Below are positions 30,623 to 52,303 of a stretch of DNA of 64,000 nucleotides, in pieces. The position numbers and the translations under genes are program-made. The stretch is from the NCBI RefSeq assembly GCF_921292975.1, contig NZ_CAKLCM010000002.1:1302001-1366000 (forward strand). The letters run 5' to 3'. The DNA is from Vibrio hippocampi (GTDB lineage: Bacteria > Pseudomonadota > Gammaproteobacteria > Enterobacterales > Vibrionaceae). Each line of letters opens with the position of its first letter. Positions within the stretch are counted from its first letter, which is position 1. The notes beneath the pieces are model-generated. The model was given only the letters and a program-made list of their open reading frames with translations. It had not been told where the DNA came from and ran no database searches.

Positions 30623-30844
30623 TTACTGAGTAAACGGCAGGTTAAAGTGATTTGATCGAGAGCGATAGTGCTTACACCATTGATCCATAATTTTACAACG
30701 TGCTTTCACATTCTCCGCTTTATCATATGCGGCTTCTACCTCACCTTTAACTTCATGTGCTAGGCACATGTCAACGTACCTGAGGTTGAACTCTAGCTCA
30801 TTTAAATTGGTCGACGCCATCGACCGAATACCATGACTACACAT
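30623..30844 (-). pseudogene. Decayed C-terminal fragment of a P4-type tyrosine integrase
   Basis: About 73 residues beginning CSHGIRSMASTNLNE, which matches the AHGMRSLASTTLNE box (catalytic His/Arg) of P4-like integrases, followed by a degenerate MCLAH...AAYDKAE stretch containing the position of the catalytic Tyr. Everything upstream of the HGxR box is missing, and the break falls next to the attachment-like repeat. Its partner for comparison is the intact integrase tail at 63670-64000. It is a remnant of an earlier integration. Confidence 0.8.
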
Positions 30845-30849: not shown

Positions 30850-30924
30850 TTATTGAAATATATACGAAAAAGCCGCAGCGTAATGCTGCGGCTTAAAATG
30901 TGGCGGTGAGTGAGGGAGTCGACC
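30850..30924. repeat. Attachment-site-like remnant (terminator plus tRNA 3'-end-like), copy 3 of 3
   Basis: On the minus strand, 30901-30924 reads as a T-arm and acceptor end close to a tRNA-Ser type tail ending CACTCACCGCCA, but with one T missing in the TTCGA loop. It is followed by the perfect hairpin 30870-30894 with a U-run. This is the probable left boundary of the DISARM island. Confidence 0.65.
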
Positions 30925-31072: not shown

Positions 31073-32752
31073 TCAATGCTCATTAATAACGACTAACAAG
31101 TGCTTAGCTCTTGAACATGCAACATAGTAATCAGCTCGTTGAAAGATGGGGGACTCCCTATTATAAGGGATATCTATGAGCATTATCGCGTCAGCCTCCA
31201 GGCCTTTAAATCCCTTAACTGTGGAGAACAAAATTCCCTTTCCTTCCTGCCAACGTTCTATGTCGCCAGTAATCTCTACTCCTCTAGCTTTGCTTAACGT
31301 AGCCAAGGAAGAATTACTCTGCTTATATGGGCTTAAAACCGCTACTTGACTTGGCTTTAAGTTACCTTTATTTATCCATTCATGTACATATCGTTCTACG
31401 CGCTTTTGGATTTCAAAACTATTATCCAGTCGAACGATGATTGGCTCATCCCCAACAGGAGCATCACCTTTAGTAGGAATTTGCTTATCAAGAATCTCGC
31501 TACACAAACTGGCTATAGATTTAGTATTGCGGCAGTTGACTGGAAGATTAAATGGCTGCCCTAAAGCAGGTAAAGACGGCTCTTGATCTACATATAAATT
31601 CTGATTGGGATCAAAGAAGACATACATAGCCCCCTCGTCACCATTTGTATTGATAAGCTCTAGTGGCAACCACCAATCTGATTGAAAGTCTTGGCCTTCA
31701 TCAACAATGACAGCATCATACCTATCTTCTAAAACGTCAATTGCCTCCACCAACAGCTCTGGTGCTTCTTCCCGCCAGAACTCGTCTTCATTTTGAGTAT
31801 AAGGATTAAATGGGATTCCAGCTTTTCTACATAAATCTGAGCAAAGACCGTGAAAATGTGTAACCGTGATTCTGTCGGTATAAACAGGAGAGATGCTGTC
31901 CCTCAACCATTTTGCAAGGGCTCTGTTGTAACACACAAGCAGCGTCTTCATTCCTTGGCTAGCAAACTTCTCTGCTTGAGCTTGTGCCAACATGGTTTTT
32001 CCTGAGCCAGCTATACCATTTATACAAGCTCTTTGTGTATGCGATAAAAAATCCAAAAGCATGAGCTGGTCGTTAGTAAGACGAAATAGTTTTTCTTCTT
32101 GGTCTTCTATTTTCCGAAAAAGAACTGGAAGCAGAGCAAAACTTGGCGAAATGGACTTGTAGATTTTTTGTCTATCCTCTTTTGAAAGAGGAATTGGGTT
32201 TTCACGCCTAACCCATTGAGATAAGGCGGACTTAATTCTTCTATCTAAAAACGGGAGGTCATTTGCAGATAGTATGACTGATGGTGTAGCTCCTGCTGGA
32301 GTCTCCCCACTATATTCACAATCAGGAAACACGGCGGCATAACCGTAACCAAATGGCAAACTGTTTGCTCCGTTATAGCCCTTTTGCTTAATTTCCTTCT
32401 CCAAGAAATGAGTATTTCTTCGTGCCTGTTCAAAAGGGTCTTGAATTGACCTTAGATTGCCATTAGGTAAAACCCTGTTCCATTCACGAGTTTCGTTGTC
32501 ATATCTAATTTCCCCCCCTTTTACCTCAAGCACCAACATTCCATGAGAAGGAAGAATAACTACAAAATCCGTTTCACCTTCTTTGAGCGTCGTATTACCT
32601 TTGTCATTTCTGTCGACCCTAAGCCATGGGTAACTATGATAAATAACACAATCGTCAGGTAACAAATCTACCAGAAACCTTGCGACATCCCTTTCCGACT
32701 TAATGCTTATATCTTCAATGTTAACCTTTGGAATTAATCTAGCCAAAATCAA
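31073..32752 (-). CDS. NERD nuclease-SF1 helicase fusion, last gene of the DISARM operon
   Basis: A 559-residue protein. The N-terminal NERD (nuclease-related) domain spans about 20-130, with the nuclease-type pattern Asp62...Glu76-Val-Lys78 (ETDFVV...LEVKGG). A UvrD/Rep-type SF1 helicase follows: Walker A GIAGSGKT (246-253), Walker B VIVDEGQDF (348-356), a motif IV-VI region with SRNTKS-like NCRNTKS, and a final CSRAKHLLVVI. The first codon is a TTG, and a second TTG two codons later has better spacing to AGGA, so the exact start is uncertain. It follows drmC by 10 nt, so it is co-transcribed with DISARM. It is not one of the named DISARM core subunits; a nuclease-helicase effector role is inferred. 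Confidence 0.88.
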   Translation of the reverse strand: MILARLIPKVNIEDISIKSERDVARFLVDLLPDDCVIYHSYPWLRVDRNDKGNTTLKEGETDFVVILPSHGMLVLEVKGGEIRYDNETREWNRVLPNGNLRSIQDPFEQARRNTHFLEKEIKQKGYNGANSLPFGYGYAAVFPDCEYSGETPAGATPSVILSANDLPFLDRRIKSALSQWVRRENPIPLSKEDRQKIYKSISPSFALLPVLFRKIEDQEEKLFRLTNDQLMLLDFLSHTQRACINGIAGSGKTMLAQAQAEKFASQGMKTLLVCYNRALAKWLRDSISPVYTDRITVTHFHGLCSDLCRKAGIPFNPYTQNEDEFWREEAPELLVEAIDVLEDRYDAVIVDEGQDFQSDWWLPLELINTNGDEGAMYVFFDPNQNLYVDQEPSLPALGQPFNLPVNCRNTKSIASLCSEILDKQIPTKGDAPVGDEPIIVRLDNSFEIQKRVERYVHEWINKGNLKPSQVAVLSPYKQSNSSLATLSKARGVEITGDIERWQEGKGILFSTVKGFKGLEADAIMLIDIPYNRESPIFQRADYYVACSRAKHLLVVINEH

Positions 32753-32762
32753 TATCCTATTT

Positions 32763-33908
32763 TTATATAACTTCCATTGCTAGTGGCACGAAATCTAACC
32801 ACTCATCTTCACTTATTTTAATTTTCTCTGTCGGACCAAAGCCCTTAACCGTCACAAGATAGTATTGCTGTCCATCAGTAATATTTTGCTGCTTATTCCA
32901 GCGATAGTTGCCCAAATACAGTTTTCCATCAAAGCTGATTATGACCAATGTGCCAGCTTTTGGCTTGCCCTCGTTAGAGTCACACTTGATAAATTTCCTC
33001 ACATCTTTACAGCCAGTTTTTTGGTTTTCAAACTCTATGCGTACGGGTTCACCCTCTTCCAATGCCTTTGACGCATCATCTAAATTTATTGTGTTTTTAT
33101 CTGTAAGCTCAGGAATATTCTTGTTTACAAAGACCGAAGAAGTATACGGAAAAATCTCTTTAGAATTAATCATAGAGTTGAGTTGACTACAAATATCAGC
33201 CGGAATACTTCCTCCTTCGATATTGATGCCCATTTCTATATTTCTATCGAGCGCAGCTTCGGTCAAGTTGGCACTAGTTATAAATGCCCCTCGCCTATCA
33301 GCAACAGCGCACTTTGCGTGTACTCGAGCAAATCCACTTTGATACTTTTCTCTGTTCTCACGAGGCCAAATATACAACTGAATGTTTGGGATGTTCGTAT
33401 GGAGTCTCTCAAGTGTCTTTAAAAAAACGCTTGATGACTCCTTATCCTCAGACTCCAAAAGCATTCTTACTTGTACACCCCTCGCAATTGCCTGCTTAAG
33501 TGCTTGCTCAACATTGGGGATGTTCACCAATACGAACGAAACGATAAATAACGTCTCTTTAGCAGAATTTATAATGTCTAATAGAACTTGTTCGGACCTT
33601 CGAACCGGAAACAAGTTTGAGTCAGGGCCTGTCCATACAAGTTCTGTCGATTCATGCTCTCTTTGTTTTGATGACGCATAAGAGGCGCCGAGTATCAGCG
33701 CCGCTAACTCTTCACTTGTACAAGTACTGTTCTTCCAAGCACTTAAAAGTGAATTAAGTGCATCATTGGAAGCTTCTGCATTAAAAAAACCCTTTAATAC
33801 AAAAGAATCCATTGATTCAGTCACTTTAATTTTCTTTGAAAGTGACTTTATTTTATCAAAGTGCTGATCTTTGACGACATCATAGATATACAGAAGTAAG
33901 TCATCCAT
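32763..33908 (-). CDS. drmC: DISARM protein DrmC (phospholipase D-like)
   Basis: A 381-residue protein with a phospholipase D superfamily core (about 95-240). One HKD motif is clear: His-Ala-Lys...Asp at about 197-204, followed by GAFITSANLTEAAL. PLD folds in defence proteins are often nucleases. DrmC is part of the DISARM core but is dispensable in some tested systems. The start at 33908 overlaps the drmB stop (TGATG), preferred over a TTG one codon earlier. The domain after residue 240 is beta-rich and not recognised. Confidence 0.88.
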   Translation of the reverse strand: MDDLLLYIYDVVKDQHFDKIKSLSKKIKVTESMDSFVLKGFFNAEASNDALNSLLSAWKNSTCTSEELAALILGASYASSKQREHESTELVWTGPDSNLFPVRRSEQVLLDIINSAKETLFIVSFVLVNIPNVEQALKQAIARGVQVRMLLESEDKESSSVFLKTLERLHTNIPNIQLYIWPRENREKYQSGFARVHAKCAVADRRGAFITSANLTEAALDRNIEMGINIEGGSIPADICSQLNSMINSKEIFPYTSSVFVNKNIPELTDKNTINLDDASKALEEGEPVRIEFENQKTGCKDVRKFIKCDSNEGKPKAGTLVIISFDGKLYLGNYRWNKQQNITDGQQYYLVTVKGFGPTEKIKISEDEWLDFVPLAMEVI

Positions 33909-35785
33909 CAACAGTCAACCTCAAAAAACGCTGCACCATCATTATCAAGCGTTGGTACTACCAACGCTCTGTCAAGGTAGCGGTTGTTTTTTTCACATGA
34001 CGTTTCAGCAGCAAAAGTACAAGCGTGGCAAGCCGCAGCATGTAAAGTTCGGTCTTTTTCAGGGTTATGCTCTGAGCAGAGTGGATCCGATGAACAAACT
34101 CTCGCGCGATTTAGTGCTTGATGGAGTAGTCTTTCCAAGTTTTCAGCCTTGCCTAACTCAACCAACCCTCCGAGGGTACCATCAGAGTCAGCAGCCGCGG
34201 TGTATATCAAGATACCAGCTTGGTTGTTTTCACCACTTGTATCACCATAAATTCTTTCACGAATACTTGCTGCATTGTAGCCACACTCAAGAGCGAGCTC
34301 CCTAATTAGTAAATGAGCTATAGTGTGTAGCAAGACATAACGAACCCCTGGATACCCACTATCTGGAGATAATCCCCTAGCTAATCTCCAGCCTTTATGG
34401 CCATTAATTAATTTTTCATTAATAACCTGAACAGCCGGAATCTGCTCCCATTGATTCAGTTCATCCTCATTGAAACAAATAAAAATACCTTCACCATGTA
34501 CCTGGCTAGCTGGTACCCAAGTAGGTGTATCCTTACATAACGAAGCCATTGGCGGTTGCTCATCTGGATTATTGCTTTCCTCAGGAGCTTCTACTCGCGT
34601 GAAACCAATTAAAGCATTCACCTCCCTCAATCGTTTCAGTAGTAAAACATTCGATATTTGCTTCTTGTATTTTGCGGGTACACTTGTTGCCTCACTTAAA
34701 AAGTGTGGCCAATCAGTTGGCGGGTTGGGCTCAATAAACACTTCCCATTCTGGCCCCTTAATATCTTCCTGAGTTACCGTACCACCTACTTCACCATTAT
34801 TGATAGCTTCTATAACGGACCAAATTTCCTCAGCAGAATATTGGTCAATTCCAGGTAGTATTGCATTTTTCACTAATACTTTAAGAATCGCTTTGACTTC
34901 AAAAACAGACTCAACATCTGAAAAGTTATCCCAGCCATCCTGAACCAGCTGAATAATAGGATCACGAGTTAGTGGAATAGCGAGGGCAGATAAAGTTATT
35001 GGGAACCAACTATTTGTTGCTCCAAGTAGCACAGCTCTAGCATCTTCTTCACAACTAGAATCATATTTGTCTAAATGAGGATGCCGCCCCCTACACGCCG
35101 GGAGATTTTCTTTACCTGCTTTTCCAAAAGCCTGCGCTAAATTTCGTTTAGCGTCACATTCATCACACTTAACCCAAAGGTTTTCTGTTTGCAACGAAGC
35201 ACCGCTTTCGAAGAAACGTAAACCACCAGTACAAGTAGAGTGCCCACCGTGCACATAGTAGCGCCAAGGGAAGTCATCTAAGTGACCATTGCGACATGCC
35301 AAGAGAAAACGAGCAGGTACAGCATCAGCATTTTTCGCTGGTTTATCCCCTTTGGAACCTCGGCACATTGAATGAACAAATCTCGTTTGTTCTGGCCTGA
35401 ATCTGTTTTCTTTAATATCAAAAAGTCCAGAGTCATACTCTGCTAACATTCCGCACTTAACACAGCGTAACCATCGAGGAAACGGCCTCACTGGGACTCC
35501 CACTCGTGCTTCCGCCGAAAATGGATCACTGGATTCTTTATTTGGAAACGGTGGCATTCTCATACTTTCGACTTGTTGCCCAAGTACTTTTTTTACCGCA
35601 GACAATAAACGAGCTTCAGTAATAGGAGGGCACCTATCTTTATCCCAACGGTCTATTCCCTGTGTAACAACCGATAGACTTGGCATATCTATTAATGCTC
35701 CAGGTCCATAGGTCCAAAGAAGCTGACTTGGTCTTACATCACCAACAGGAGTAATGTTTGAAATCGTCTTTTTACCAGCGCCCAT
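33908..35785 (-). CDS. drmB: DISARM protein DrmB (DUF1998)
   Basis: A 625-residue DUF1998 protein, which in DISARM forms a complex with the helicase DrmA that recognises invading DNA with a 5' end. The N-terminal part has paired Cys motifs (CVKCGM near 110; CDECDAKRN near 210). The DUF1998 region at about 470-600 contains YVLLHTIAHLLIRELALECGY and a Cys cluster (SSDPLCSEH, AACHACTF, TSCEKNNRYLDR). It overlaps drmA at TAATG and drmC at TGATG, indicating tight coupling. Confidence 0.92.
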   Translation of the reverse strand: MGAGKKTISNITPVGDVRPSQLLWTYGPGALIDMPSLSVVTQGIDRWDKDRCPPITEARLLSAVKKVLGQQVESMRMPPFPNKESSDPFSAEARVGVPVRPFPRWLRCVKCGMLAEYDSGLFDIKENRFRPEQTRFVHSMCRGSKGDKPAKNADAVPARFLLACRNGHLDDFPWRYYVHGGHSTCTGGLRFFESGASLQTENLWVKCDECDAKRNLAQAFGKAGKENLPACRGRHPHLDKYDSSCEEDARAVLLGATNSWFPITLSALAIPLTRDPIIQLVQDGWDNFSDVESVFEVKAILKVLVKNAILPGIDQYSAEEIWSVIEAINNGEVGGTVTQEDIKGPEWEVFIEPNPPTDWPHFLSEATSVPAKYKKQISNVLLLKRLREVNALIGFTRVEAPEESNNPDEQPPMASLCKDTPTWVPASQVHGEGIFICFNEDELNQWEQIPAVQVINEKLINGHKGWRLARGLSPDSGYPGVRYVLLHTIAHLLIRELALECGYNAASIRERIYGDTSGENNQAGILIYTAAADSDGTLGGLVELGKAENLERLLHQALNRARVCSSDPLCSEHNPEKDRTLHAAACHACTFAAETSCEKNNRYLDRALVVPTLDNDGAAFFEVDC

Positions 35786-38700
35786 TATAAATCACCTTCT
35801 GTTGCACTTTTCTTCTTCACTGGAGGCTTCCAAGAAGGACCATCCGGGAGTTGTTGAGTATTCATTTGTAATTTAACTCCAGGCTCAACTTCACGCATAG
35901 ACATAGGAACAGTAAATCGCCCCCACTCGCCTATTCCAGGTTTATTAATCAAAGCAATCTTCGAGTCGACGCTTTCCCCTTTCTTCTCATAAGCCACCGT
36001 ACGACCTGGAACATGAGTCTCTTTTACCCACTCATCAACTCTCTGTTTAATAGCAGCGCTGGCTAATTTCTTTGACTCGGAACTCTCTTCAACCAAGTGC
36101 ACCCTATCCGTAATTGAGCTGATCGTTGTTTGAACAATACTTGAACTTGGCGATTTTAGTTTTGCTGCCCCATCATTGGGGTTCAACTTGTCATCGCTTA
36201 AACGCATTAAACTCAGCATTGAGCCTGTTAGGCCTCTATCCATCGCTCGAGGAGAAAACGGAGTCACTGATTGCGCTTCAACATGTTTGTAGAATGTCGA
36301 ATGATAGTGCTCGAAAGTTTCGTAGTGAGATAGATCTCTCGGCCTTGACCATGTCAAAACAGTACAAACTAGCCCTGGGAAACTACGTCCAACACGGCTG
36401 GTTGCCTGGATATACTCGGCAGTACTCTTAGGTTGACCATTGACTGCCATCACACCGAGTCTATTAACGTCAACCCCAACTGATAACATGTTGGTTGCTA
36501 GTACCACATCAATAGCGCGACTTTCTCCCTCACCCCACCTAGTAATATACTTACCTTCGACGGGATCGAAATCTGCCTTAAATTTAACCTCTAGCTGATC
36601 AAGATATTTAGGGATGTCTTGGCTTGATACACGAGAAGTCAACTCTCGTATATTGTTGACACTTCGCTGCTGCAATCCAGGTCGATCAACCAAACTCATT
36701 TGCACTCGGTAAGAACGAGTTTGAACATCATCCTCGGCTAGTCGTTTCATGCCGCCTAATTCACGTAAAGAGTTAAAGTAACCAACACTCGTCATGTAGG
36801 GGTCAGCTACTTGACCAAAGCGTTCAAACAATGCTTGAGATGCTGTCAAAAATGCTGTGTATACTCGTATTAATACTGCAGGTCTTGCGCTGCCAGGGGA
36901 ACACACTCCGATATAACGGCGACCATAGTGATCTTTGATTGGTCGCTGGACAGAAAAAAAGTTGTCTTCAATATCTAAGCCATGTGGGGGAAATACTGCG
37001 ACTTGACGATTAAAAACGCCACTAACTTGTTGCTTTGCTTTCCTCACCGTTGCTGTTGAAGCAATAACTTTTGGTCGAATAAACTTACCGCCAAGTGTCC
37101 ATGAACACAACTCATCGACTGCCGTTTCATATAAGCCCACCATCGTCCCTAGTGGACCACTAATTAGGTGGAACTCATCTTGAATGATGAGATCCGGCGG
37201 ACGGATTTCAGAAATAGCTTTAACTTTTACTGTTGGGCCTGCTTTAGATTTAGGGTGGTTACCATTACAGGAATTCGAGTCCGACCAGATCAACCCATGC
37301 CGTTCGCACTCAAGACTTGCTTTACCAAACAAATTTCTGATTTCACCTCGCCACGCCATCATTGCAAACTTGTCTACCGTGGCAATCATCATTGAAGGTG
37401 GGCGGTGGTACATCTCTTCATCAACGACTAAAGCAGGAATACCCGGATGTGCTGATTTGGCTGACTTACCTTTAGAAAACTCACAGCGTGCTTTTTTATC
37501 CCCACAGTAGATTGCTGTTTGTAACTTATCCTTGTTAACCTCAATATGCTTACCTGGTTCAATCTCTTCCCCACACCACGGACAACTCGTTAACTGAGCC
37601 GGTGATGAACCTCCTGCATTGTATTTATCAGGGTCTCGAATATCTTTTATCGCTTTTGCGCTATCATCAGTGCTACCGGGCGCCACCTTATTGCCAACCC
37701 ATAAGCCGATAGTAAATGGTGTTTCGCCAAGCCGCATATCACCATTTTTCACAGACTCTTGACGAATAACTTCCATTGCACAAATCAATGTAGTCGCACG
37801 TTGAAACTGCTGGAGCGTAAGCAGTCTTAGGGTGTAACGCATTATTACGGCCAGACCTCGGCTTGCATCATACCCTCCCAAGTTGCCCTGAAAACGACGA
37901 ATCGACATAGTGAATGCAGCCACACCAAGGTAAGCTTCTGTTTTACCACCACCAGTTGGGAACCATAACAAGTCGGCGAAAGACTCAGCCGACTCCGTTC
38001 TATCTTGATGATCAGGCTGTGCTAAAGCAGGAATAGATAACAGAAGAAATGCAAGCTGGAATGAACGCCATGAGTAGTTTTTTGGATCTTTATAAAGTTC
38101 GTCAACTTTTATGGCTTTATCGGTTCTACGTTTATGGGCGTAAATACTCTGAACACGTTGCTTAGCCATAGCAAGGTTTGCAAAACGAAATGCTTCCAAT
38201 GCATTGTCGTTTTCGGGATCTGCTAATACCTCTATGCCTTCCTTTAAGCGCTGATTTATTTCCGAACAACTAGCAATAGCTCGATATGCAGCATCATCAT
38301 GATTGACGACATCATCACCTATTCGGTGTTTCTGCTCATCTATCCAAGCGGTGTAATCGTCGGTCATCTGAGTTAACGCAACGACAAGCTCTTCTCTTGT
38401 CATTTCAGCTAACTTCAGCATATTCAAATAGCCACCGGATACCATTGCCTTTAGCGCTGGCCTGTCCCCATCACGGAGGCCTGGAACTTCCGTTACTGGC
38501 ACTTCATATTGTGGCATGACAACGGTTTTGACTTTCGACGCCCTCTCTACGTCCTCTGATGACACATCTGCATGAACAGCGATACCGTGACCAGAGGCAA
38601 ATTCTACTTGGTTACGATAAACCATTTCCAATGATTCACGCTCCAAGTCCTCACCATCAGGCTTTAGTACCGGGCGCTTGCGGAAAACGTCTTTTCTTGA

Positions 38701-39783
38701 GGATTCGCTAACAGCAGAGGCTGAAATCTCAGGTTGAAAAACCCACGCTGTATCTCTGTTTGACTCTGGTTCTTCTTGTGTATTGACCAAGAAAACTGTA
38801 ACAAGTCGATCGCCATTTTCATTCGGCTTTCTCACGGTTCCTTGAATAACGACATTAGAGTTTTCTTTGTCGATAGCAACAGGCTTAATCGACCCCGTTT
38901 CTAATGGTAAGTTTATGGAACCACCACAAGGTATACGTTGCCAAACTTTAACTTTAGCACCTTGCGATTCTTCACCTGTTTCAGGATCAGTATGAGTCTT
39001 GTACATATCATGCTCATAGAAGCGCTGATAACGTCCCCAAGAGGCTTGAATCTCAATACTTTTTTCCTCACCAGACACACAGAATGTAAAACCCATGCTT
39101 GAGGGAATTAATGATTGGTTACTCGCAGCATCGACTTCTTCGCTAGATTCAGGATCTGGTTTAACGCTGCTAGACGGCGAGTCAGATTTCGTCGAGGTAG
39201 CTTTGACGATTAAATCCTCTGGGTCTTCATCCTCATCTCCAGAGCCATCAATACCAAACTCTCCACCTTTTTCAGCAGCATCTAATGGTGCTAAACGACC
39301 GACGAGGTAACGGTCACGCACACTCATATCAAGAATTTGCTCATGCGGTCCATTTGCTGGACCTAACAAATCATCCATCACCGCATACTGCAGAAGTTCC
39401 CTTACATAAACATCATCTTGAATAAGTGGAACCTCGGCTAGCGTTTTTCCGAGGAGATTAGGGACCTCTTCAGCAAATTTTGTCCATTCAATACGTGATA
39501 CTTGACCAGAACACGTAAATGGTACTGCCACAGATAGTTCAGATTTCAGGTACTTATCGAAAAATAACGTTGTTGAATCTAAATCACTACGTTGCCGATA
39601 AACCCGTCCTACACCGAGTAGTGCATTTGCGCTATCAACTACGAGTACCCAACAGCCTTCAACAATACCTGAGAATATTTCTCTCTTACCATGCAACTGT
39701 ACGCAATAATTCGCACAACGCGAATTACTTGGTTTAGTAGTGTTTAGTGCAATAAATGCTTTGTTCTTAGTTATCCTAACCAT
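35785..39783 (-). CDS. drmA: DISARM helicase DrmA (SF2)
   Basis: A 1332-residue SF2 helicase. The Walker A motif in WFPTGGGKTEAY is at about residue 608, the DEFH box (IIQDEFHLISGPLG) at about 868, and the C-terminal motif VI (ATSRVGRSFPG) at about 1128. A zinc-binding pair CPWCGEE lies near 735. An acidic, Asp/Glu/Ser-rich linker (about 160-225) precedes the helicase core. DrmA with DrmB is the DNA-sensing, translocating part of DISARM. It begins 7 nt after drmMI. Length matches class 1 DrmA proteins. Confidence 0.94.
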   Translation of the reverse strand: MVRITKNKAFIALNTTKPSNSRCANYCVQLHGKREIFSGIVEGCWVLVVDSANALLGVGRVYRQRSDLDSTTLFFDKYLKSELSVAVPFTCSGQVSRIEWTKFAEEVPNLLGKTLAEVPLIQDDVYVRELLQYAVMDDLLGPANGPHEQILDMSVRDRYLVGRLAPLDAAEKGGEFGIDGSGDEDEDPEDLIVKATSTKSDSPSSSVKPDPESSEEVDAASNQSLIPSSMGFTFCVSGEEKSIEIQASWGRYQRFYEHDMYKTHTDPETGEESQGAKVKVWQRIPCGGSINLPLETGSIKPVAIDKENSNVVIQGTVRKPNENGDRLVTVFLVNTQEEPESNRDTAWVFQPEISASAVSESSRKDVFRKRPVLKPDGEDLERESLEMVYRNQVEFASGHGIAVHADVSSEDVERASKVKTVVMPQYEVPVTEVPGLRDGDRPALKAMVSGGYLNMLKLAEMTREELVVALTQMTDDYTAWIDEQKHRIGDDVVNHDDAAYRAIASCSEINQRLKEGIEVLADPENDNALEAFRFANLAMAKQRVQSIYAHKRRTDKAIKVDELYKDPKNYSWRSFQLAFLLLSIPALAQPDHQDRTESAESFADLLWFPTGGGKTEAYLGVAAFTMSIRRFQGNLGGYDASRGLAVIMRYTLRLLTLQQFQRATTLICAMEVIRQESVKNGDMRLGETPFTIGLWVGNKVAPGSTDDSAKAIKDIRDPDKYNAGGSSPAQLTSCPWCGEEIEPGKHIEVNKDKLQTAIYCGDKKARCEFSKGKSAKSAHPGIPALVVDEEMYHRPPSMMIATVDKFAMMAWRGEIRNLFGKASLECERHGLIWSDSNSCNGNHPKSKAGPTVKVKAISEIRPPDLIIQDEFHLISGPLGTMVGLYETAVDELCSWTLGGKFIRPKVIASTATVRKAKQQVSGVFNRQVAVFPPHGLDIEDNFFSVQRPIKDHYGRRYIGVCSPGSARPAVLIRVYTAFLTASQALFERFGQVADPYMTSVGYFNSLRELGGMKRLAEDDVQTRSYRVQMSLVDRPGLQQRSVNNIRELTSRVSSQDIPKYLDQLEVKFKADFDPVEGKYITRWGEGESRAIDVVLATNMLSVGVDVNRLGVMAVNGQPKSTAEYIQATSRVGRSFPGLVCTVLTWSRPRDLSHYETFEHYHSTFYKHVEAQSVTPFSPRAMDRGLTGSMLSLMRLSDDKLNPNDGAAKLKSPSSSIVQTTISSITDRVHLVEESSESKKLASAAIKQRVDEWVKETHVPGRTVAYEKKGESVDSKIALINKPGIGEWGRFTVPMSMREVEPGVKLQMNTQQLPDGPSWKPPVKKKSATEGDL

Positions 39784-39790
39784 TCAACCC

Positions 39791-42700
39791 TTATCCTTGT
39801 TCAGCCTCATGTCTAGCTTTGTTCAACATTGAGAGGCGATATAAGATTTCTTCTCTAGCTTTCTCACTAATAGTAAAGCGAGTATTTTTTCCTTCAGGTA
39901 AATAACCCACACAGTGAAACCCATACTCTGGTTCCAAATCGTTGAAACCGTAGGCGGACAAAACAGCGTCGTTTAGAGCGATTTGCTTTTCTCGCAACGC
40001 ACTAATCTCAAATGAATATAAAGCTTGATCATGTAAATCATTATAAAACTTTGTCATACCTTTTTGATTTTCAAGCATATATCTTGCTCTCAAATCAAAA
40101 AATTCTCGCCCCATTCGATTTAAATCGTCATGTGTACCTTCCAGCACTTTTTCTGGAAATGGGAACGTTTCAAATATATCACCATGAGTGTACCTAAGAC
40201 GCTCATGCAACCTTGAACCATGTTCAAAGGCCCACACTGCATGGAAGTCTGATGATAAACATGCAAACAAAGACATACTGTCACTTGTTACTACACATAA
40301 TGTATTAGCGTAAATATACCTGTTAGGAACAAATGTGAAACATGGGTATTTGGTCGCTCCAGTTGCAAAAACCAAGACCTTCTCCATCGGTTCCTGCATT
40401 GCATCCCAATGTTTGGGATGCTGTTCAAATGAATGCCCCCTTCCAACCTTATGATACAACTCTGGTCTTGGTCTCAAATGTCTCCACCAATATTCCTGAG
40501 CTCCTTTATCTTTACCAGATAACCTCTCTTGCTTTACATTTTCCTCTAAATGCGCAAATGGCAATTCATATTTTTCAGCTTCTTCTATCTCCCAATCAAA
40601 AAAGGAAATAACCTTCCTTTCAGGAGAGTGCGTAAAACTCTGGTTTACTTCTCTACCAATTAAAAAGTCAAAAATCACATTTTTAGTTTCAGGCTGCTGC
40701 TTCACCCACTTTTCTGTTGTGTCTGAGTCAACCAAAAAACCATCCCCAAGGAGGATAGTACCTTGATAAACCATTTTTTTATTTGAGTTTATTTTTACAG
40801 GGGACCAGTTATCTCTATGGCTTAAACTTGGAGATATATAATCAACTTTCTGACCATTTATGGTTTTTTCTCCAGTCCAGCTCCCTTTGTATAAATGCAC
40901 TCGGCTAGTAACTACACTTGCATTACCGGGCCAAACTTCGCTGGGTACAGCCTGATAAATGCTAGCACCTATTGCCAACATTTGAGATAGTGATATGTCT
41001 CTCGTATTTCCTTCCGCAATGGTATTAACTGCAATCAGTCCCATTGTACTATTGGGAGCTAGTAGCTTATAAGCCTGTAAGAAAAAGTAGGCAACTAGGT
41101 CTGCAGAACCTCTTTTACCATCAGCTAAACATTCAACTAAATAATCGCGATAACATGTACCCATGAATCCCGTTATTTTTTGACCACCAAGGAAAGGAGG
41201 ATTTCCGACAATTGCGTCAAAGCCACATTTTTTGGTACTGAATACCTCTGGAAACTCTAAACACCAATGAAAGGCCGTTCTTGCTTTTTTCCTGTCTGTT
41301 AGGTCAGCAGACAATCCATCTAAGGCTGTAGACTTCAAGTAATGAGTACACTCTAAATCACCAGCTATGGATTGCGGTAACAAAGCGGCAAGAACGGAAG
41401 TGTCAGCTAACTTTCCACCAGACTTTAATTTCATACCAACCAAGGCATCTGCTACTAACTTTGGAAACGCTATTGCTTCTTTAACCTGATCAGCCGTGAG
41501 TACCATTTCCGCTATATCAGACACTCTATTGATATCATGAACTGCAATTTGTTTTCTCAGTTCTGCAGCATCTGTTACCCGCTTTTTTACTTGCTCTGCA
41601 ATAGGTAGCTCTACCAACTGTGATTTTTTAGCTTGAGATGGATTTAAATTTAAGAAACAGAGCTGATCTAGGTTATGTATACCTAGTAAACTGTCACCTG
41701 ACTTTAGATTGTGATCTAAAAAGCCAAAAGGTCGATCCTTCGATAAAGTGACAAGCCAAATTGATAGTTTTGCTAGTTCAACCGCTAGCGGGTTGATATC
41801 AACACCATAGAGGCAACGTTCTGAGATTAACCGCCTAGCGACAATCAAACGCTCTTCAGCATCAATTGGCAACAACTCCATAGTTTCATCGTGAGTCGTT
41901 GCTCCCTTCACTGTGACAAAAACACCTGTTTGTTCGGCTATTAACCATGATTCACACACTCGTTCAGCCAGCCATCGACACACTTGAACAAGAAATGCAC
42001 CAGAGCCCATTGCTGGGTCACAAATTTTTAGACCAAGTAGTTCTTCTGGTGACTTCAACTGCCACTCTTCTCGAGGTTTTCCTTCTGCTGGTCCGACATA
42101 AACAACTGCCTCAAGCGTTTCGGTCACAATAGATTCGGTTAATGACTTAGGCGTGTAGTGAGAGCCTGTCTCTCGCCTATCAGAGCCAGTTGTCAACATG
42201 AAAGCATTTTTAGGATAAAGTAGCGGATTACCCCAAGCATCAAACCTTAGAAAGTGGTAATAAGGTTTAATACGCTGACACAGTTCCATATCGTTATAAC
42301 AAGCTACCAGGAGCTTATCGACATCTGCGTCTGTCACTTCTTTATTCAAATCATTCGTGATTCGAGATGGAGAACTGCCAGTGCGTTCTTTGAGAAGTTT
42401 CTTCAATGCAGGCAAGCCATCAAGAGCAGCTGAGGCTAACTCCCCTAACTGGACCCAAGGCTTTTTGCAGCTTTTGCTACCAGATAACTCCAACGTAACA
42501 TCAGAAGCTCGTTTTACTGTCTGCTCCAATAGACCCTCATAGACATAACCAATTTGCTCTACATCTAGCGCTCGATAAGACAGTGTTCTACCTTGATACA
42601 ATTGAATGGCATCAAGGAACAATAAGACAGTTCGATTATCAATCGGTAGCGGCTTGGCTTCTTCTTCAAGCCAGCTACTACCTTTCTTTCTACCTTCCAA

Positions 42701-43843
42701 GAAAGGGAACCTATCAGGATCAAAAAGCGAGCCGCCCAATGCTGGCATACGCATATTTTCATGCTCAACACCGGAATAAACAGATCGGAAGATAGCTAAT
42801 AAACGCGCCCATGCGTTTTTACGATAAGAGAGCACTTCATCACCATGTAAACTCGCTTCTTCTCTCAACTTAGCTCGCAATGTCGACATTGCATAATTAG
42901 CTTCATAGGCTTGATCACCTAAGAGCAATAGACCACGTTCTTCCGCACAAAGTAAAAATACCAAGCGCATCATTAATGTTAAGCCAGCCTCGTATAACTC
43001 TTCAGGCTCAACGCCTTCCAATAGCTCTCCATTGTGATCATGATTAATGCGGTCAATTGACTGAATAAGCACTTCAACCGCTCGACTTACTTGAACACCA
43101 AGTGTTTGAGTGACATCATCTTGATGCTGCAATGATTCATCAATTAACTCTGGGAGAGTTTTAGCTTCATCAAAGCCGTTAAATACAACTCCTATGTTAA
43201 ATAGGCTATAGAATGCTTTTAACGTTATAGGTTCTAGCCCCCATAGACGAGCATACCAGCTGGCATAGGTCGTTATTCCCCCAACAGGAGCATCAATGAA
43301 CATCCATTGTTCTCCATTTGTGATCAGCCCCAGTCTAGTTCCAACACCTCGACATAAATGTGCCATGCGTTCTGCTGGCGTTGTAGACCAGCTGTCCCCC
43401 GGAAATACTTCACTCAGAGCCGTACCTGACGGATAGGTTTGTATCAACATATAAGGTTTGGTTTCGTCACTAGCAATGACCGCATAATCTGGTTTTATTG
43501 TTACTTGATGCTCCGGAACAGTGGCCGCAATGGAGTCATGCATCTGAGGTTGCTCTTTGAGTACATCTCCATCTCCATCCTCATCTAGTTCCAAGCCAAA
43601 TTTCAACACCCAGTTGATCCATTGATGGTGAATCTTGTCTTTGATTTTTAGATCTTCTAGAACATCACTATCAATGACTTCACGCCATTCATCGTACGTT
43701 TGACGAAACTGTCTCTTCTTTATTGAGTCTAGTTTTTCAAGTCCCTGCGGAAATGCTTGATTAAGTATAGGCTCAGCCAAAAACGGGCCTGATACTTCAA
43801 TGAGTGACAGCCAGTCGGCATGTTGAGTTGTGGAAAATGCCAT
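39791..43843 (-). CDS. drmMI: Class 1 DISARM adenine-N6 DNA methyltransferase
   Basis: A 1350-residue Eco57I/Type IIG-like methyltransferase. The S-adenosylmethionine motif DPAMGSGAF is at about residue 611 and the catalytic NPPFLGG at about 881; the C-terminal part (about 1000-1330) resembles target-recognition and specificity regions. It marks host DNA so that DISARM spares it. Its start overlaps the drmD stop (TGATG). The presence of this gene and drmD defines the locus as class 1. No nuclease motif was spotted in its N-terminus, but this was not tested. Confidence 0.92.
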   Translation of the reverse strand: MAFSTTQHADWLSLIEVSGPFLAEPILNQAFPQGLEKLDSIKKRQFRQTYDEWREVIDSDVLEDLKIKDKIHHQWINWVLKFGLELDEDGDGDVLKEQPQMHDSIAATVPEHQVTIKPDYAVIASDETKPYMLIQTYPSGTALSEVFPGDSWSTTPAERMAHLCRGVGTRLGLITNGEQWMFIDAPVGGITTYASWYARLWGLEPITLKAFYSLFNIGVVFNGFDEAKTLPELIDESLQHQDDVTQTLGVQVSRAVEVLIQSIDRINHDHNGELLEGVEPEELYEAGLTLMMRLVFLLCAEERGLLLLGDQAYEANYAMSTLRAKLREEASLHGDEVLSYRKNAWARLLAIFRSVYSGVEHENMRMPALGGSLFDPDRFPFLEGRKKGSSWLEEEAKPLPIDNRTVLLFLDAIQLYQGRTLSYRALDVEQIGYVYEGLLEQTVKRASDVTLELSGSKSCKKPWVQLGELASAALDGLPALKKLLKERTGSSPSRITNDLNKEVTDADVDKLLVACYNDMELCQRIKPYYHFLRFDAWGNPLLYPKNAFMLTTGSDRRETGSHYTPKSLTESIVTETLEAVVYVGPAEGKPREEWQLKSPEELLGLKICDPAMGSGAFLVQVCRWLAERVCESWLIAEQTGVFVTVKGATTHDETMELLPIDAEERLIVARRLISERCLYGVDINPLAVELAKLSIWLVTLSKDRPFGFLDHNLKSGDSLLGIHNLDQLCFLNLNPSQAKKSQLVELPIAEQVKKRVTDAAELRKQIAVHDINRVSDIAEMVLTADQVKEAIAFPKLVADALVGMKLKSGGKLADTSVLAALLPQSIAGDLECTHYLKSTALDGLSADLTDRKKARTAFHWCLEFPEVFSTKKCGFDAIVGNPPFLGGQKITGFMGTCYRDYLVECLADGKRGSADLVAYFFLQAYKLLAPNSTMGLIAVNTIAEGNTRDISLSQMLAIGASIYQAVPSEVWPGNASVVTSRVHLYKGSWTGEKTINGQKVDYISPSLSHRDNWSPVKINSNKKMVYQGTILLGDGFLVDSDTTEKWVKQQPETKNVIFDFLIGREVNQSFTHSPERKVISFFDWEIEEAEKYELPFAHLEENVKQERLSGKDKGAQEYWWRHLRPRPELYHKVGRGHSFEQHPKHWDAMQEPMEKVLVFATGATKYPCFTFVPNRYIYANTLCVVTSDSMSLFACLSSDFHAVWAFEHGSRLHERLRYTHGDIFETFPFPEKVLEGTHDDLNRMGREFFDLRARYMLENQKGMTKFYNDLHDQALYSFEISALREKQIALNDAVLSAYGFNDLEPEYGFHCVGYLPEGKNTRFTISEKAREEILYRLSMLNKARHEAEQG

Positions 43844-46800
43844 CAGTTCGCCTCACACAAGTTATCTGGTACCAGGAAAATTACCGCTACGGGGAATGTA
43901 CGGTCGATGTAGTTTGCGTAGCGTTTTTCGATTGCTTCGGTCTCTGCTTTTTTATCCGACTCTATTCGCTGCTTCCTTGCTGCAATTGCTACTCTGTCTT
44001 TTTTCACTTCAGTCCTCTCATCTTCTCCAAATAAGCTCAACTGTTCGTGAAGAACACCTTCGAGTGATAGCTGTTCACCAATTGAATGATCTAACTCATC
44101 AAGCACGGTAGTAATATCGTCTATCTCTTTCTGTTTAAGACGTTCAAGAGTGCTTTCCAAATTAGTAAGACGCTCTTTTGATCTTGCTTCGACAGACTGA
44201 TGAATCGATTGGGCTTGATTCGTAAACCTGGTTTTTAGCGCATCTTTCGTTTGCTGAGAGACATATGCTGGTGTTGATAGCTCAAGCCATGTGTCTATTT
44301 GATTCACACCTCGCTCTCGACTATGTCCACTGTCTTTGAGATAACCACCAGCATAGGTAATTTCTTCGTGTAGGCGGTTATGAGTCCCACCAACTACAAC
44401 TAACCTTGATGCAACAATCGCAACCACACTTTGCAGTTCTGTAGAAGGGACACTCCTTACTGTGACTCGGTGGAGCTTATCGTCTTTCTCCCAAACCCTA
44501 CTGCGTAATAGCCGCAAACACATTTGCACCAAACGATGATTTAAGTGCACCAGCACTACATCATCTCTCCCTTTAGCGACGTTATGATCAAACGTTATTG
44601 GTCTAATTTGTTTAGTGAAAGGGTGGCGTAAACCTTTGTTACAAGGAGCCCAAGAACCTGTAAACTCTGGCATTATGAACACACTTCCTTCAGGTGTATT
44701 CGTGAGAGTTATTGGCTTCAGTGGCGGTTTCTGAGCAACTTCTAAGGCTGTCTGAACAGCAGCCAAAACATGTTCAGGTGTTAAGTGAAAATCTTCTTGA
44801 GTTGAGATAAGTTGCTGGTGTAGACGCTTTATCTTTTCTTGTAAGTCTCGCTCGGCTCTAACCGCCTTTTTCGCTTTAGCCATTTTGGCTTCGGCTTGTA
44901 GTGTATTGAGCTCAGTGGCTCGACCTTCAATTAATCCCGCCATTTGAGGAGCGATGACAGGGTTTACACTCCCCATGTCTTCACGCATCGACTCTAGCTT
45001 GATAAGTGCTCTGATGATGTCATCTTTATGACCACCAACAGTGTCACTATCGGTTGCTGAGCCAGCATCAACAGGGTGCCAAATTAGAATTTCCTTTGCT
45101 TTTTGACCGTGTCGGTCGATACGACCATTCCGCTGTTCCATTACATTTGGATTGTATGGAATTTCTAAGTGTATTAGACAATTACAATGATTCTGTAAAT
45201 CAATACCTTCGGAAGCTGCATCTGTAGCTAACAATATTCTGACATCAGATTGCTCTGGATGGGTTTGAAAAGCAGCTTTAACATCTTCACGCTCTTCATG
45301 ATCCATACCTCCATTGATGATAGCTAGGCGTTTACCAGCCAACCCTTTTTCGGTAAGAATTTTCTCCAACCATTGTTGAGTTGTTCGATACTCTGTAAAT
45401 AGGATAACACGCTGATTATTCCATTTTTTACCATCTTTTAAATTGCGATTAATCCAACCACAAATAGCATCAGCTTTTGAATCTGATTGATATTGCGCTG
45501 CTTGCGCCCAACTTCTCAATTCATTGAGCAAAGATCGTTCTTTCTGACTCAGCGGTACAGCTCGACGACTTGCCTCCTCAATCGCCTCTTCTTGCGCCAG
45601 TTCAAAATCTTGGTCATTTGCGTAATCCTCTTCGGCTTTAAGCATCGCTTTTCGAAGGATTCGCTCTTCAATAGCTGTCGTTTGTTTTGATTCTGAGGCC
45701 TTGTTTAGAGTGTTGATATGTTTTTCTAGCGTCGATGCAAAAGACGCCGGCGAAGAAAACAGTCTTTTCTTTAGTAAGCCGTTGACAAACTTTGTAGCCA
45801 TCACATTTTTTGCATCGGCGTTAGATGATTCTCGACTTTCCGCATATTGATCAAGCTTTTGGTGCATGCTTCGCTCAAGCTCGGTGAAATTCACTTCCAA
45901 GGCTTGTAGTTTTCTCTTCGGATAAAGAGCCTCACCATTTTCATCGACAAGATCGGTTTTCAAACGCCTAATCATAACTTTTTGGAGCTGTTTCTCGTTT
46001 GGTAAGATGTTGCGAGAGAAACGCTGGTCATCCAGTATTTCTAGCAAGGAAGTAAATGACTCTGTGTAACCATTGTGGGGTGTCGCGGTTAAAAACAGCT
46101 TATGCTGAAAGTGAGGCGCAATTTCTCGAATAATTTTTGTACGCTGACTTGCAACAGCGTAATTCGCTGAGCCAGATGGAGCGATATTATGCGCTTCGTC
46201 AATGACCAACATATCAAACTTACGCGGGTATTCAGCCTTTGCTGGCATAGTTTCTCTGAGAAGCCTTAAACCTTCTCCACTTTTTATCCAGTCTTGCGAA
46301 GCAATAAGTCGAGGAAACGACGTCCAAGGGTTAGCATGAATCCCTCGCTCGCGGCGAAGTTGTTTCACATACTCGGTATTAACAAGTTTGAACTCCAAAC
46401 CAAACTTTTCTTGCATCTCGTCTTGCCACTTCAATTGCAAAGAAGCTGGGCAAATAATGAGCACTGTTCGAGCACGGTGGCGAATTAACATCTCCTGAAT
46501 AACTAAGCCGGCTTCAATGGTTTTACCTAGGCCGACGTCGTCTGCTATCAGAAGATTTACACGAGCCATATTGATTGCTCGAACTAAAGGATCAAGCTGA
46601 AAGTTTTCAATGCTCACACCGCTGCGAAAAGGGGCTTGTAAGAAGTTTCTATCTGCGTTGGTAGCGGCCCCCCAACGAACTGCATCTAGAAATGCATCCA
46701 GCTTGCTTGCATCATCAAAACCAGTTATTTCTGGCAAGCCTGATTTCTCAATAATGTGAGCGCCGGGCTCAATCTCCCAGATCACTTCAAGTTCTTCGCC

Positions 46801-46965
46801 TAAGCCATCTTCATCAATAGAGGATAACGTTACATAATTTTGCTTTGTGCGAAATGAAGTTGGGAGTTGTGAAGTTTTCACGTCAGCGACAATCCATTGT
46901 CGCTTTCTAACTTCAACCAGTTGGCCTGGTTCTGGAGTGACTGAATATTCGATGGTTTGTGTCAT
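43843..46965 (-). CDS. drmD: DISARM SNF2-like helicase DrmD
   Basis: A 1040-residue SNF2/RapA-type helicase. Walker A DDVGLGKT is at residues 142-149, DEAH (VIDEAHNIAPSGS) at about 254, SAT-equivalent TATPHNG near 290, and the C-terminal motifs ATDAASEGIDLQ and RNGRIDRHGQ near 590 and 640. A long charged, coiled-coil tail follows (about 860-1030). DrmD is the signature extra helicase of class 1 DISARM. It is the first gene of the tightly overlapping drmD-MI-A-B-C run; the 162-nt gap upstream (46966-47127) likely holds a promoter. Confidence 0.92.
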   Translation of the reverse strand: MTQTIEYSVTPEPGQLVEVRKRQWIVADVKTSQLPTSFRTKQNYVTLSSIDEDGLGEELEVIWEIEPGAHIIEKSGLPEITGFDDASKLDAFLDAVRWGAATNADRNFLQAPFRSGVSIENFQLDPLVRAINMARVNLLIADDVGLGKTIEAGLVIQEMLIRHRARTVLIICPASLQLKWQDEMQEKFGLEFKLVNTEYVKQLRRERGIHANPWTSFPRLIASQDWIKSGEGLRLLRETMPAKAEYPRKFDMLVIDEAHNIAPSGSANYAVASQRTKIIREIAPHFQHKLFLTATPHNGYTESFTSLLEILDDQRFSRNILPNEKQLQKVMIRRLKTDLVDENGEALYPKRKLQALEVNFTELERSMHQKLDQYAESRESSNADAKNVMATKFVNGLLKKRLFSSPASFASTLEKHINTLNKASESKQTTAIEERILRKAMLKAEEDYANDQDFELAQEEAIEEASRRAVPLSQKERSLLNELRSWAQAAQYQSDSKADAICGWINRNLKDGKKWNNQRVILFTEYRTTQQWLEKILTEKGLAGKRLAIINGGMDHEEREDVKAAFQTHPEQSDVRILLATDAASEGIDLQNHCNCLIHLEIPYNPNVMEQRNGRIDRHGQKAKEILIWHPVDAGSATDSDTVGGHKDDIIRALIKLESMREDMGSVNPVIAPQMAGLIEGRATELNTLQAEAKMAKAKKAVRAERDLQEKIKRLHQQLISTQEDFHLTPEHVLAAVQTALEVAQKPPLKPITLTNTPEGSVFIMPEFTGSWAPCNKGLRHPFTKQIRPITFDHNVAKGRDDVVLVHLNHRLVQMCLRLLRSRVWEKDDKLHRVTVRSVPSTELQSVVAIVASRLVVVGGTHNRLHEEITYAGGYLKDSGHSRERGVNQIDTWLELSTPAYVSQQTKDALKTRFTNQAQSIHQSVEARSKERLTNLESTLERLKQKEIDDITTVLDELDHSIGEQLSLEGVLHEQLSLFGEDERTEVKKDRVAIAARKQRIESDKKAETEAIEKRYANYIDRTFPVAVIFLVPDNLCEAN

Positions 46966-47127: not shown

Positions 47128-48189
47128 CTACTGATTGGGTTGCTGGTTGATATGATTCTGTAGGGAAGTACCAACTATTTCACCAAGACGCACAGGTACT
47201 GCGTTTCCAATCATTTTACCAAGGTTTTTTATCGCATATTCGCCATCTGGCTCAACGAACTCATAGTCATCAGGAAACGACTGTAAAATTGCGGCTTCCC
47301 GCAATGAAATTGCTCGGGCTTGAGTTGGGTGTCCAAAACGACCATTCCCAAAACCAAAGCACTGAGTCGTGATAGTTGGACTAGGCTCATCCCATGTCAT
47401 ACGACCATAAACGCTAGCATAGCCTTTTCCACTAGCTTTCGTATGGCATTTAGCCCGTAGTTCCTCAGGCCAATCTCGCCACGTGCCTCCTGGTTTTGAT
47501 GCTTTTATTCGCTTCAGATTCAACTCAGACAAACTACTTGAGCGATGCAATGGATCATGCTTACTAACACTACCCGCCTTAATTCTTGGCAGATGTCCTA
47601 TAACATCTTTGACCGTTATGTATTTGCTTTTATCGTGAGTTGGTTTTATTAATTCAATTTTTCCCAGACGGGAAGCTAATAAAACGAGCCTACTTCTAGT
47701 CTGTGCCATCCCATAGTCCGGACAAAAAACAACTCTCTCATCAACGAAGTAACCTTCTGATTTTAGGCCTTCTTTGAAGTCAGCGTAGACTTTATGCTTA
47801 TTCAAATCAGGAACATTTTCCATTGTAATGAAGTCAGGTTGTGATTCTTTAACTAGGCGAGCGAACTGATAAAGTAGCCCCCATCTCTCATCTTGTTCTT
47901 TAGGTTTCGCTTGAGTGTACTTAGAGAAAGGTTGGCAAGGTGCACAACCAGCAAGTAGCGAGTATGCACTATCGTCAAATCTTGACTTAATATCTTCGGC
48001 TGTAACATCCGCTACACTTTTTAGAACAAACTCAGCACTGTTGTTGTGCTCATACGGAAATTTGCAGTTCACCTCAATATCAAACCCAGCTTTTACATCA
48101 ATCCCTGCCTTTTGTAAGCCATGGGTCAGGCCACCAGCACCACAAAATAGGTCAACACCAACGATTTTCACTTTAACTACCAAAATCAA
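47128..48189 (-). CDS. Cytosine-C5 DNA methyltransferase (Dcm family)
   Basis: A 353-residue C5 methyltransferase. Motif I DLFCGAGG is near residue 13, the catalytic PCQPF at 84-88 (Cys85), ENV at 124-126 and QTRSR at 163-167, with motif IX/X regions near the C-terminus (GNAVPVRLG). The first codon in frame is TTG; a GTG six codons later is an alternative start. It lies on the same strand as, and 162 nt before, drmD, and 64 nt after the HNH gene. A C5 methyltransferase is the hallmark of class 2 DISARM (drmMII), yet here it accompanies class 1 genes. It could instead be the modification half of a restriction pair with the HNH protein. Confidence 0.93.
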   Translation of the reverse strand: MILVVKVKIVGVDLFCGAGGLTHGLQKAGIDVKAGFDIEVNCKFPYEHNNSAEFVLKSVADVTAEDIKSRFDDSAYSLLAGCAPCQPFSKYTQAKPKEQDERWGLLYQFARLVKESQPDFITMENVPDLNKHKVYADFKEGLKSEGYFVDERVVFCPDYGMAQTRSRLVLLASRLGKIELIKPTHDKSKYITVKDVIGHLPRIKAGSVSKHDPLHRSSSLSELNLKRIKASKPGGTWRDWPEELRAKCHTKASGKGYASVYGRMTWDEPSPTITTQCFGFGNGRFGHPTQARAISLREAAILQSFPDDYEFVEPDGEYAIKNLGKMIGNAVPVRLGEIVGTSLQNHINQQPNQ

Positions 48190-48253
48190 CTTTAACTTTG
48201 CGAGGACTATACCATAAATCTAGTAAAGCATCGAGCACGATAGTGAAGTGTAA

Positions 48254-49108: not shown

Positions 49109-49287
49109 TCAACCAAGCCTTAAACTGACGATAATAGTAAGTATATGCACTAGCTGTGAAACGTAGAGCAGGAACTTCAAGAGGGATTGGGGCTAATCTA
49201 TTTAAACTCACTAGTAACTTTCAAAAGCAATTCCTAGCTATCAAGATATCAGTTGCTCCTTCTCTGACTGAGTCAGTATGGTTACTA

Positions 49288-51761: not shown

Positions 51762-51811
51762 GCACAACCTCTTGAATTAATTGCCGCTCGCAACAGCGGT
51801 AAGGAGCCTTT

Positions 51812-52258: not shown

Positions 52259-52268
52259 ACAGCAAAAG

Positions 52269-52292
52269 CAAGGCTTGGGTGACCAAGCCTTG
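52269..52292 (+). terminator. Hairpin terminator after the radC-DUF2787 operon
   Basis: CAAGGCTTGG-gtga-CCAAGCCTTG is a perfect 10-bp stem with a short loop, followed by TTGCCTTA, a weak U-run. It lies 11 nt after the DUF2787 stop. Confidence 0.7.
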
Positions 52293-52303
52293 TTGCCTTA
52301 GTA

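Follow-up and report, generated by a model that had tools for sequence, protein, structure and literature searches.

The stretch of Vibrio hippocampi DNA analysed here (the window, 64,000 nucleotides) carries on its reverse strand the five genes of a class 1 DISARM system, an anti-phage family whose founding paper is reportedly that of Ofir et al. 2018. They are followed by a sixth gene, encoding a NERD nuclease domain joined to an SF1 helicase, which we call NERDhel. The genes and the features considered below are the following.

47128..48189, reverse strand: C5-cytosine methyltransferase upstream of drmD, a possible associate (Pfam DNA_methylase, 191.7 bits; PADLOC DrmMII, 325.7)
43843..46965, reverse strand: drmD, SNF2-like helicase, 1040 aa (NCBIfam DISARM_DrmD, 1383 bits, cut-off 610; PADLOC DrmD, 1475)
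39791..43843, reverse strand: drmMI, MmeI/Eco57I-type N6-adenine methyltransferase, 1350 aa (PADLOC DrmMI, 1726 bits; Pfam Eco57I, MmeI_Mtase and MmeI_TRD)
40151..40792, reverse strand: target recognition domain of DrmMI, residues 1018-1231 (Pfam MmeI_TRD)
35785..39783, reverse strand: drmA, SF2 (YprA-type) helicase, 1332 aa (NCBIfam DISARM_DrmAS, 1475.7 bits, cut-off 950)
33908..35785, reverse strand: drmB, DUF1998/MZB protein, 625 aa (NCBIfam DrmB_fam, 757.9 bits, cut-off 240; Pfam MZB)
32763..33911, reverse strand: drmC, PLD-type nuclease in a long form, 382 aa (NCBIfam DISARM_DrmC_I, 232 bits, cut-off 133, over residues 15-248 only)
32763..33147, reverse strand: C-terminal extension of DrmC, approximately residues 255-382 (about 130 aa), seen only where NERDhel is present
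31073..32752, reverse strand: NERDhel, NERD nuclease domain and SF1 helicase, 559 aa (Pfam NERD, PADLOC and motif conservation)
32381..32701, reverse strand: NERD domain of NERDhel, residues 18-124, with D62, E76 and K78 (Pfam NERD, 50.1 bits, cut-off 22.1)
31082..32095, reverse strand: SF1 helicase region of NERDhel, approximately residues 220-557 (sub-threshold Pfam matches to AAA_19, AAA_12 and UvrD_C_2; invariant motifs)
30870..30894, reverse strand: terminator-like hairpin, likely the end of the operon, with a 10-pair stem and a T-rich tail (consensus match only)

All six operon reading frames were open over these coordinates. Overlaps of 1 nt join drmD to drmMI and drmA to drmB, one of 4 nt joins drmB to drmC, and gaps of 7 nt and 10 nt separate drmMI from drmA and drmC from NERDhel, whose start codon is TTG. 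This agrees with the first-pass annotation, which had described five DISARM genes overlapping or nearly touching and a sixth gene 10 nt after drmC. Its assignment to class 1 was also borne out, as DrmD, DrmMI, DrmA, DrmB and DrmC are all present, in the class 1 order drmD-drmMI-drmA-drmB-drmC, and all five were named by PADLOC with bit scores between 281 (for DrmB) and 1726 (for DrmMI). The NCBIfam cut-offs were passed by DrmA, DrmB, DrmC and DrmD, and none was passed by DrmMI. For the DrmD protein the top PADLOC match was a model labelled DrmA, the DrmD model being second. DrmA matched the solved DrmA chain 7s9v_A in phmmer with 1874 bits, and DrmE was absent from the PADLOC matches listed for nine proteins, in a library that may be without a DrmE model. 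The target recognition region of DrmMI diverges, the window sharing 54-65% identity with two sibling operons over the blocks from 40965 to 40005. A relative of the upstream C5-cytosine methyltransferase (659 bits) also lies upstream of drmD in one of the sister loci, L045.

The strongest terminator-like site on the operon strand was the 10-pair hairpin, located 179 nt past the NERDhel stop. Between drmC and NERDhel the scan detected no terminator-like site, and weak sites of 5-6 pairs were seen within these two genes. Considering that the scan total of 5 was barely above that of shuffled sequences (2.6, sd 1.6), the hairpin as operon end is suggestive. An Rfam scan of 25000-64000 gave no match, no direct repeats of at least 18 bases were found in 30500-64000, and the whole operon had no near DNA match in the E. 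coli genomes.

NERDhel has the two features of the NERD-SF1 family, an N-terminal NERD domain of the PD-(D/E)xK type and the SF1 motifs, with the SF1 Pfam matches remaining below threshold. The first-pass annotation had singled out D62, E76, K78 and the Walker A motif. These residues fit the PD-(D/E)xK pattern and are near-invariant among the 62 NERD-SF1 proteins that we collected: D62 is found in all 62, E76 in 60 and K78 in 61, while K252 of Walker A, D351, R408 and R548 are each conserved in 62/62. The best family match among the PADLOC matches listed was the reverse transcriptase-associated NERD-helicase (RTasNERD-Hel, 211.5 bits; C3a187 reached 126.4), and Pfam detected no reverse transcriptase in the 29 reading frames scanned (of the 43 in the window with at least 120 aa), a set covering the operon and the genes that flank it closely. 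The 4.59-Mb genome has a single NERDhel match at E ≤0.001. The closest named locus is that of Vibrio hepatarius HF70, with a NERDhel 95% identical to that of the window; dN/dS between the two is 0.14, which corresponds to purifying selection, and the values of DrmA (0.065), DrmB (0.068) and DrmC (0.10) are all lower. No match was obtained among PDB sequences at E ≤0.01, and the AlphaFold model of NERDhel was unusable (pLDDT 33.7). In viral contigs no close relative was seen; matches to NERDhel were obtained in two unannotated phage records, one match spanning 97% of the protein with 29% identity.

The other distinctive element of the operon is the tail of DrmC. The PLD fold was matched over residues 97-263 (VIA-align) in a weak model of DrmC (pLDDT 54.1), and in this low-confidence model the extension is predicted to be mostly beta. 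In the structural comparison the PLD part was recognised and no match covering the extension was seen. The extension also resembles nothing else among the loci compared. Its profile matched only the window, the V. hepatarius locus (L044) and L003, which among the loci compared are the three class 1 loci with NERDhel. A short DrmC was present in the 11 other class 1 loci where DrmC was found (L033, L034, L045, L046, L056 and L057, and on plasmids L107, L108, L110, L111 and L112, the lengths for L108, L111 and L112 being taken from annotation). When plasmids were searched with a stretch whose end is the DrmC extension, the matches covered PLD parts only.

The sister operon L045 makes this joint presence and absence visible at the DNA level. 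It is about 90% identical to the window, and its DrmA is 94% identical, up to position 33148, where the PLD domain of DrmC ends and the match stops; the DrmC of L045 has 268 aa, and NERDhel is missing. With L003 the match likewise breaks at 33144 and is picked up again in NERDhel. Since L003 lies outside the group formed by the window, L044 and L045, the tail was either lost in L045 or gained twice. Compared with V. hepatarius, the window is 77-88% identical over 35004-33005, 96-98% over 33004-31514 and 88% over 31513-31069, and the match ends at 31085, near the NERDhel stop; dS is 0.185 for NERDhel, 0.27 for drmA and 0.60-0.65 for drmB and drmC. An equally similar block (98%) is found in 38504-38005, and the sibling operons are mosaic throughout. 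As other blocks are as similar as the tail, its identity fits an exchange and is by itself no proof of transfer as a unit; the idea that the extension and NERDhel were exchanged together between the window and V. hepatarius is thus weakened by the mosaic character of the operons along their whole length.

Both the lack of NERDhel in L045 and the listing of NERD+UvrD proteins as separate candidates in PADLOC would fit a NERDhel that forms a defence system of its own, consisting of one gene, carried along in the operon and working by itself. We consider this rather unlikely, given the closeness of NERDhel to drmC and its joint presence with the DrmC extension, and given the distribution of its relatives described below.

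Loci with DrmA were collected independently of NERDhel by searches in 369, 329, 398, 260 and 257 genomes, which are overlapping sets and, as in all the family searches, public subsets. Matches better than 1e-20 were taken as regions of at most 20 kb, which gave 44 regions, or 45 with the window; weak matches (best E 3.6e-5) were left out in the 369-, 329- and 398-genome searches, and the threshold of 1e-20 was set in the other two. At most two DrmA candidates were scored per genome, so that the copy number is a lower bound. L035, L060, L068 and L124 were excluded as truncated, and L002 and L044, apparently one locus, were counted once, leaving 41 DrmA loci. DrmMI was present in 12 of these, with NERD-SF1 in two (the window and V. 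hepatarius). DrmC without DrmMI was found in five, none of which has NERD-SF1; by the size of DrmA and DrmB these five look class-2-like. The remaining 24 have neither DrmMI nor DrmC, and there 19 have NERD-SF1 and five an SF1 helicase without NERD (two of the five, L048 and L049, being copies in one genome). The difference between 19/24 and 2/17 gave a Fisher P of 2.5e-5, uncorrected for relatedness; related loci, such as the near-identical L041 and L042, inflate P values of this kind.

The DrmC extension and NERDhel are both absent from the 10 other DrmMI loci sampled in genomes and from the eight plasmid DISARMs with DrmD and a DrmMI-type gene (0/8 for NERDhel; the eight are among 60 plasmid records listed). 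NERDhel is also present in a third class 1 locus, L003 (Gammaproteobacteria bacterium 45_16_T64), which has a 73% identical DrmD on the same contig on the upstream side; this locus was not counted because it was found by the NERDhel query. The first-pass annotation had raised the prospect that the gene might prove rarely linked to DISARM: this held for loci with DrmMI and failed for pairs of DrmA and DrmB alone, of which NERD-SF1 is the usual partner. Given that NERDhel is missing from most of the DISARM loci sampled, L045 included, the core does without it, and its role as a regular DISARM subunit was rejected.

In what is apparently the same set of 369 genomes, DrmA was found in 12, NERDhel (E ≤1e-10) in 36 and both in eight, against 1.2 expected (P 1.4e-6, or 9.8e-6 without the genome of the window). 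The spacing was also close. Among 26 NERDhels in DrmAB loci, seven of which come from plasmid loci found via NERDhel itself, 19 directly adjoin drmA or drmB (four of them convergent, in L041, L042, L055 and L073, and the other 15 on the same strand), and the remaining seven belong to the same run of genes, at a distance of two coupled genes from drmB. A chance neighbourhood was rejected on the basis of this co-occurrence and spacing. The pairs of DrmA and DrmB without DrmD, DrmMI and DrmC therefore have beside them the same NERD-SF1 family as the window. In 2/2 tested, the DrmA of such pairs was below the NCBIfam DISARM cut-off. A C5-cytosine methyltransferase profile match above 180 bits was obtained in 11 of the 24 fetched regions of loci lacking DrmMI and DrmC, for which reason the name 'methyltransferase-less' was rejected for the DrmMI-less group.

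The Druantia, Tiamat and McrBC contexts of NERDhel were found by examining its nearest relatives first. Two plasmid relatives begin a few nt after the genes for proteins of 2094 aa (L069) and 2052 aa (L070). The former is DruE1 (1528 bits), in a locus that also has a DUF4338 gene, presumably the mark of Druantia druA, and the latter was called DruE by its size and layout. In L075 and L077 the relatives come directly after the TmtA gene of Tiamat (1279 and 2048 bits, respectively), and in L078 the relative lies 87 nt before a gene whose product has EVE and AAA_5 domains, and before a McrBC-family gene. Taking into account the rarity with DrmMI, the usual presence beside DrmAB pairs and the kin behind DruE, the link of NERDhel appears to be with the DrmAB-type motor and not with DISARM overall. 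Repair is a common role of SF1 UvrD-like helicases, and on this ground NERDhel might be a repair or regulatory helicase that preserves host DNA integrity alongside DISARM and is no effector. Both the kin placed after DruE and TmtA and before McrBC genes and the conservation of the NERD catalytic residues make this very unlikely.

In the NERDhel tree (all trees being quick SH-aLRT trees) the three DISARM copies group together (100, starred as well supported), with the two DruE-linked copies as their sister (99, starred). The enclosing branch of 19 (support 88) also holds both Tiamat copies, the McrBC copy, nine DrmAB-linked copies and two unassigned ones, and 17 further DrmAB-linked copies form a separate branch (100, starred). 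In the DrmA tree, where long-branch attraction between the L041 group or class-2-like loci and the rest is possible, the NERD label requires seven changes, at least six of which are forced by starred branches. Independent action, as considered above, finds support in the 28 of the 62 collected NERD-SF1 proteins without an assigned defence partner, some of whose partners may have been missed. However, 26 of these 28 lie elsewhere in the tree than the 19-member branch with the window copy, and the association with DrmAB and DruE recurs on different branches. The case for a functional link rests mainly on this repeated pairing with one type of motor.

By comparison with class 1 DISARM, the window differs in the 130-aa DrmC extension and in the terminal NERD-SF1 gene. 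The first-pass annotation had remarked that a NERD helicase is not a named DISARM subunit. In accordance with this, no report of a NERD-SF1 helicase in DISARM was found in the literature searched, which consisted mostly of sources other than preprints, and none is mentioned in the accessible part of PMC12458937, which describes the nucleases of YprA-type systems. According to that part of PMC12458937, ARMADA type II has a YprA-type helicase, a BrxHII-like helicase, a methyltransferase and a final SF1 helicase with an N-terminal nuclease-type domain, as does the window; yet the domain of its ArmD is RelE-like and that of NERDhel is NERD by Pfam. The ARMADA YprA proteins are described in the same text as carrying a C-terminal Vsr nuclease and as closest to Druantia; in the window DrmA and DrmB are separate genes and neither has a Vsr match in Pfam. 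TALON (PMC12458937, same part) combines a YprA-type helicase with a NERD nuclease, as in the window, but it further includes an ARMADA-like helicase together with genes for TPR-CSD and TBP, and it is rare and largely confined to Chloroflexota. No TPR-CSD or TBP gene was detected by Pfam among the nine operon and upstream proteins. Membership in ARMADA or TALON was thus rejected, the defining genes being missing. An extra nuclease-type protein embedded in DISARM-like operons is also reported for ShdA, in about 70 loci in Pseudomonas (PMC10270631, in the part available); it has an RmuC domain, by name a different family from NERDhel.

With regard to mechanism, DrmAB is described in the available part of PMC9142583 as binding 5'-overhang single strands and as autoinhibited, and DrmC as dispensable and not co-purified, recruitment of another nuclease being proposed there. 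We consider, with roughly equal chances for and against, that the window holds a full class 1 DISARM operon with a plug-in effector module, formed by the DrmC extension and NERD-SF1, which would be swappable and would serve the DrmAB motor. DrmAB would load on 5'-overhang single strands and open the DNA; NERDhel would engage the exposed strand, translocate along it and use its PD-(D/E)xK centre to cut it; the extension of DrmC might, at a guess, dock NERDhel on the complex; and methylation by DrmMI would protect the host. In this way NERDhel would supply the DNA degradation, as the first-pass annotation had suggested it could. RecBCD and AddAB consist of two motors and a PD-(D/E)xK nuclease, and the proposed division of labour would resemble that of these enzymes and of ArmD in ARMADA type II. 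According to the accessible text of PMC12458937, ArmD is encoded after the YprA helicase and joins a RelE-like domain to an SF1 helicase; ARMADA defence was lost when its Walker A was changed and was partly reduced by a Walker B mutation.

The same NERD centre could instead be turned against the cell, NERDhel being a backup killing effector that attacks host DNA when a phage inhibits DISARM; suicidal backup roles have been proposed for the NERD domains of PglW and DndF (PMC12839542 and PMC10853773, in the parts available). A fused helicase would be better suited to degrading opened DNA than a free toxin, and the protection given by ARMADA, whose helicase is comparable, is non-abortive according to the available part of PMC12458937, so that we hold this alternative to be improbable.

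Going back to the plug-in module, a broader version of it is possible rather than probable. NERD-SF1 may be a shared, swappable nuclease effector of YprA-type motors, with a third DrmAB architecture composed of DrmA, DrmB and NERD-SF1, often with a C5-cytosine methyltransferase and without DrmD, DrmMI and DrmC; the same module would serve DruE, and the window would be a hybrid that acquired it through a DrmC adaptor domain. If true, a swappable NERD-SF1 effector would provide the nuclease step still missing for these DISARM-type systems at least. As NERDhel is common beside related defence helicases, it is a good candidate for the DNA-destroying part of DISARM, and its recurrence beside DrmAB and DruE, together with its pairing with the DrmC extension in class 1 DISARM, makes this nuclease candidate a concrete one. 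A direct test is possible, since V. hepatarius and the window have NERDhel in natural operons near-identical to that of L045, where it is missing.

In the DrmA-DrmB loci L036, L039, L051-L054, and L125, a protein of 468-545 aa is encoded immediately before the NERD nuclease-SF1 helicase fusion (NERDhel), with a gap of -4 to 3 nt between the two genes. The similarity among these preceding proteins is chain-wise, from member to member, and that of L039 gave a weak, sub-threshold Pfam match to an ADP-ribosyltransferase (2CompART). A variant of the DrmA-DrmB loci was also seen (L047, L048, L050, and L063), in which the SF1 helicase has 457-505 aa and lacks the NERD domain; it is followed by a related protein of 478-495 aa, which is broken into two ORFs in L048 and which had no Pfam match in the L050 member, the sole one scanned.

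In the plasmid loci L069 and L070, where a NERDhel relative directly follows DruE, a two-gene set lies convergent with this pair. It encodes a protein of 960-1012 aa, for which neither a Pfam nor a PADLOC match was found in the L069 copy, and then an SNF2-type helicase similar to DpdE, BrxH, and DrmD.

The features flanking the DISARM operon in the window were as follows.

30623-30844: 73-aa ORF, downstream of NERDhel
47128-50517: C5-cytosine methyltransferase, HNH protein, and Dam-like methyltransferase, upstream of drmD
50845-59072: RadC, DUF2787, YfjJ, and DUF3987 genes

Considering the 73-aa ORF, which we take to resemble the C terminus of a phage-type integrase, together with the RadC, DUF2787, YfjJ, and DUF3987 genes, the operon is probably located within a degraded mobile island. 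A Dcm relative is likewise found upstream of drmD in the sibling operon L045, and Dcm and Vsr-like genes were found repeatedly near DrmAB loci.

Among the three sibling operons (the window, Vibrio hepatarius, and L045), drmMI is mostly 87-97% identical, except at window positions 40005-40965, where the blocks of the target recognition domain share 50-65% identity; in L045 the divergent stretch is longer. Given such strong divergence of this domain, the methylation motif of DrmMI probably differs between the sibling operons.
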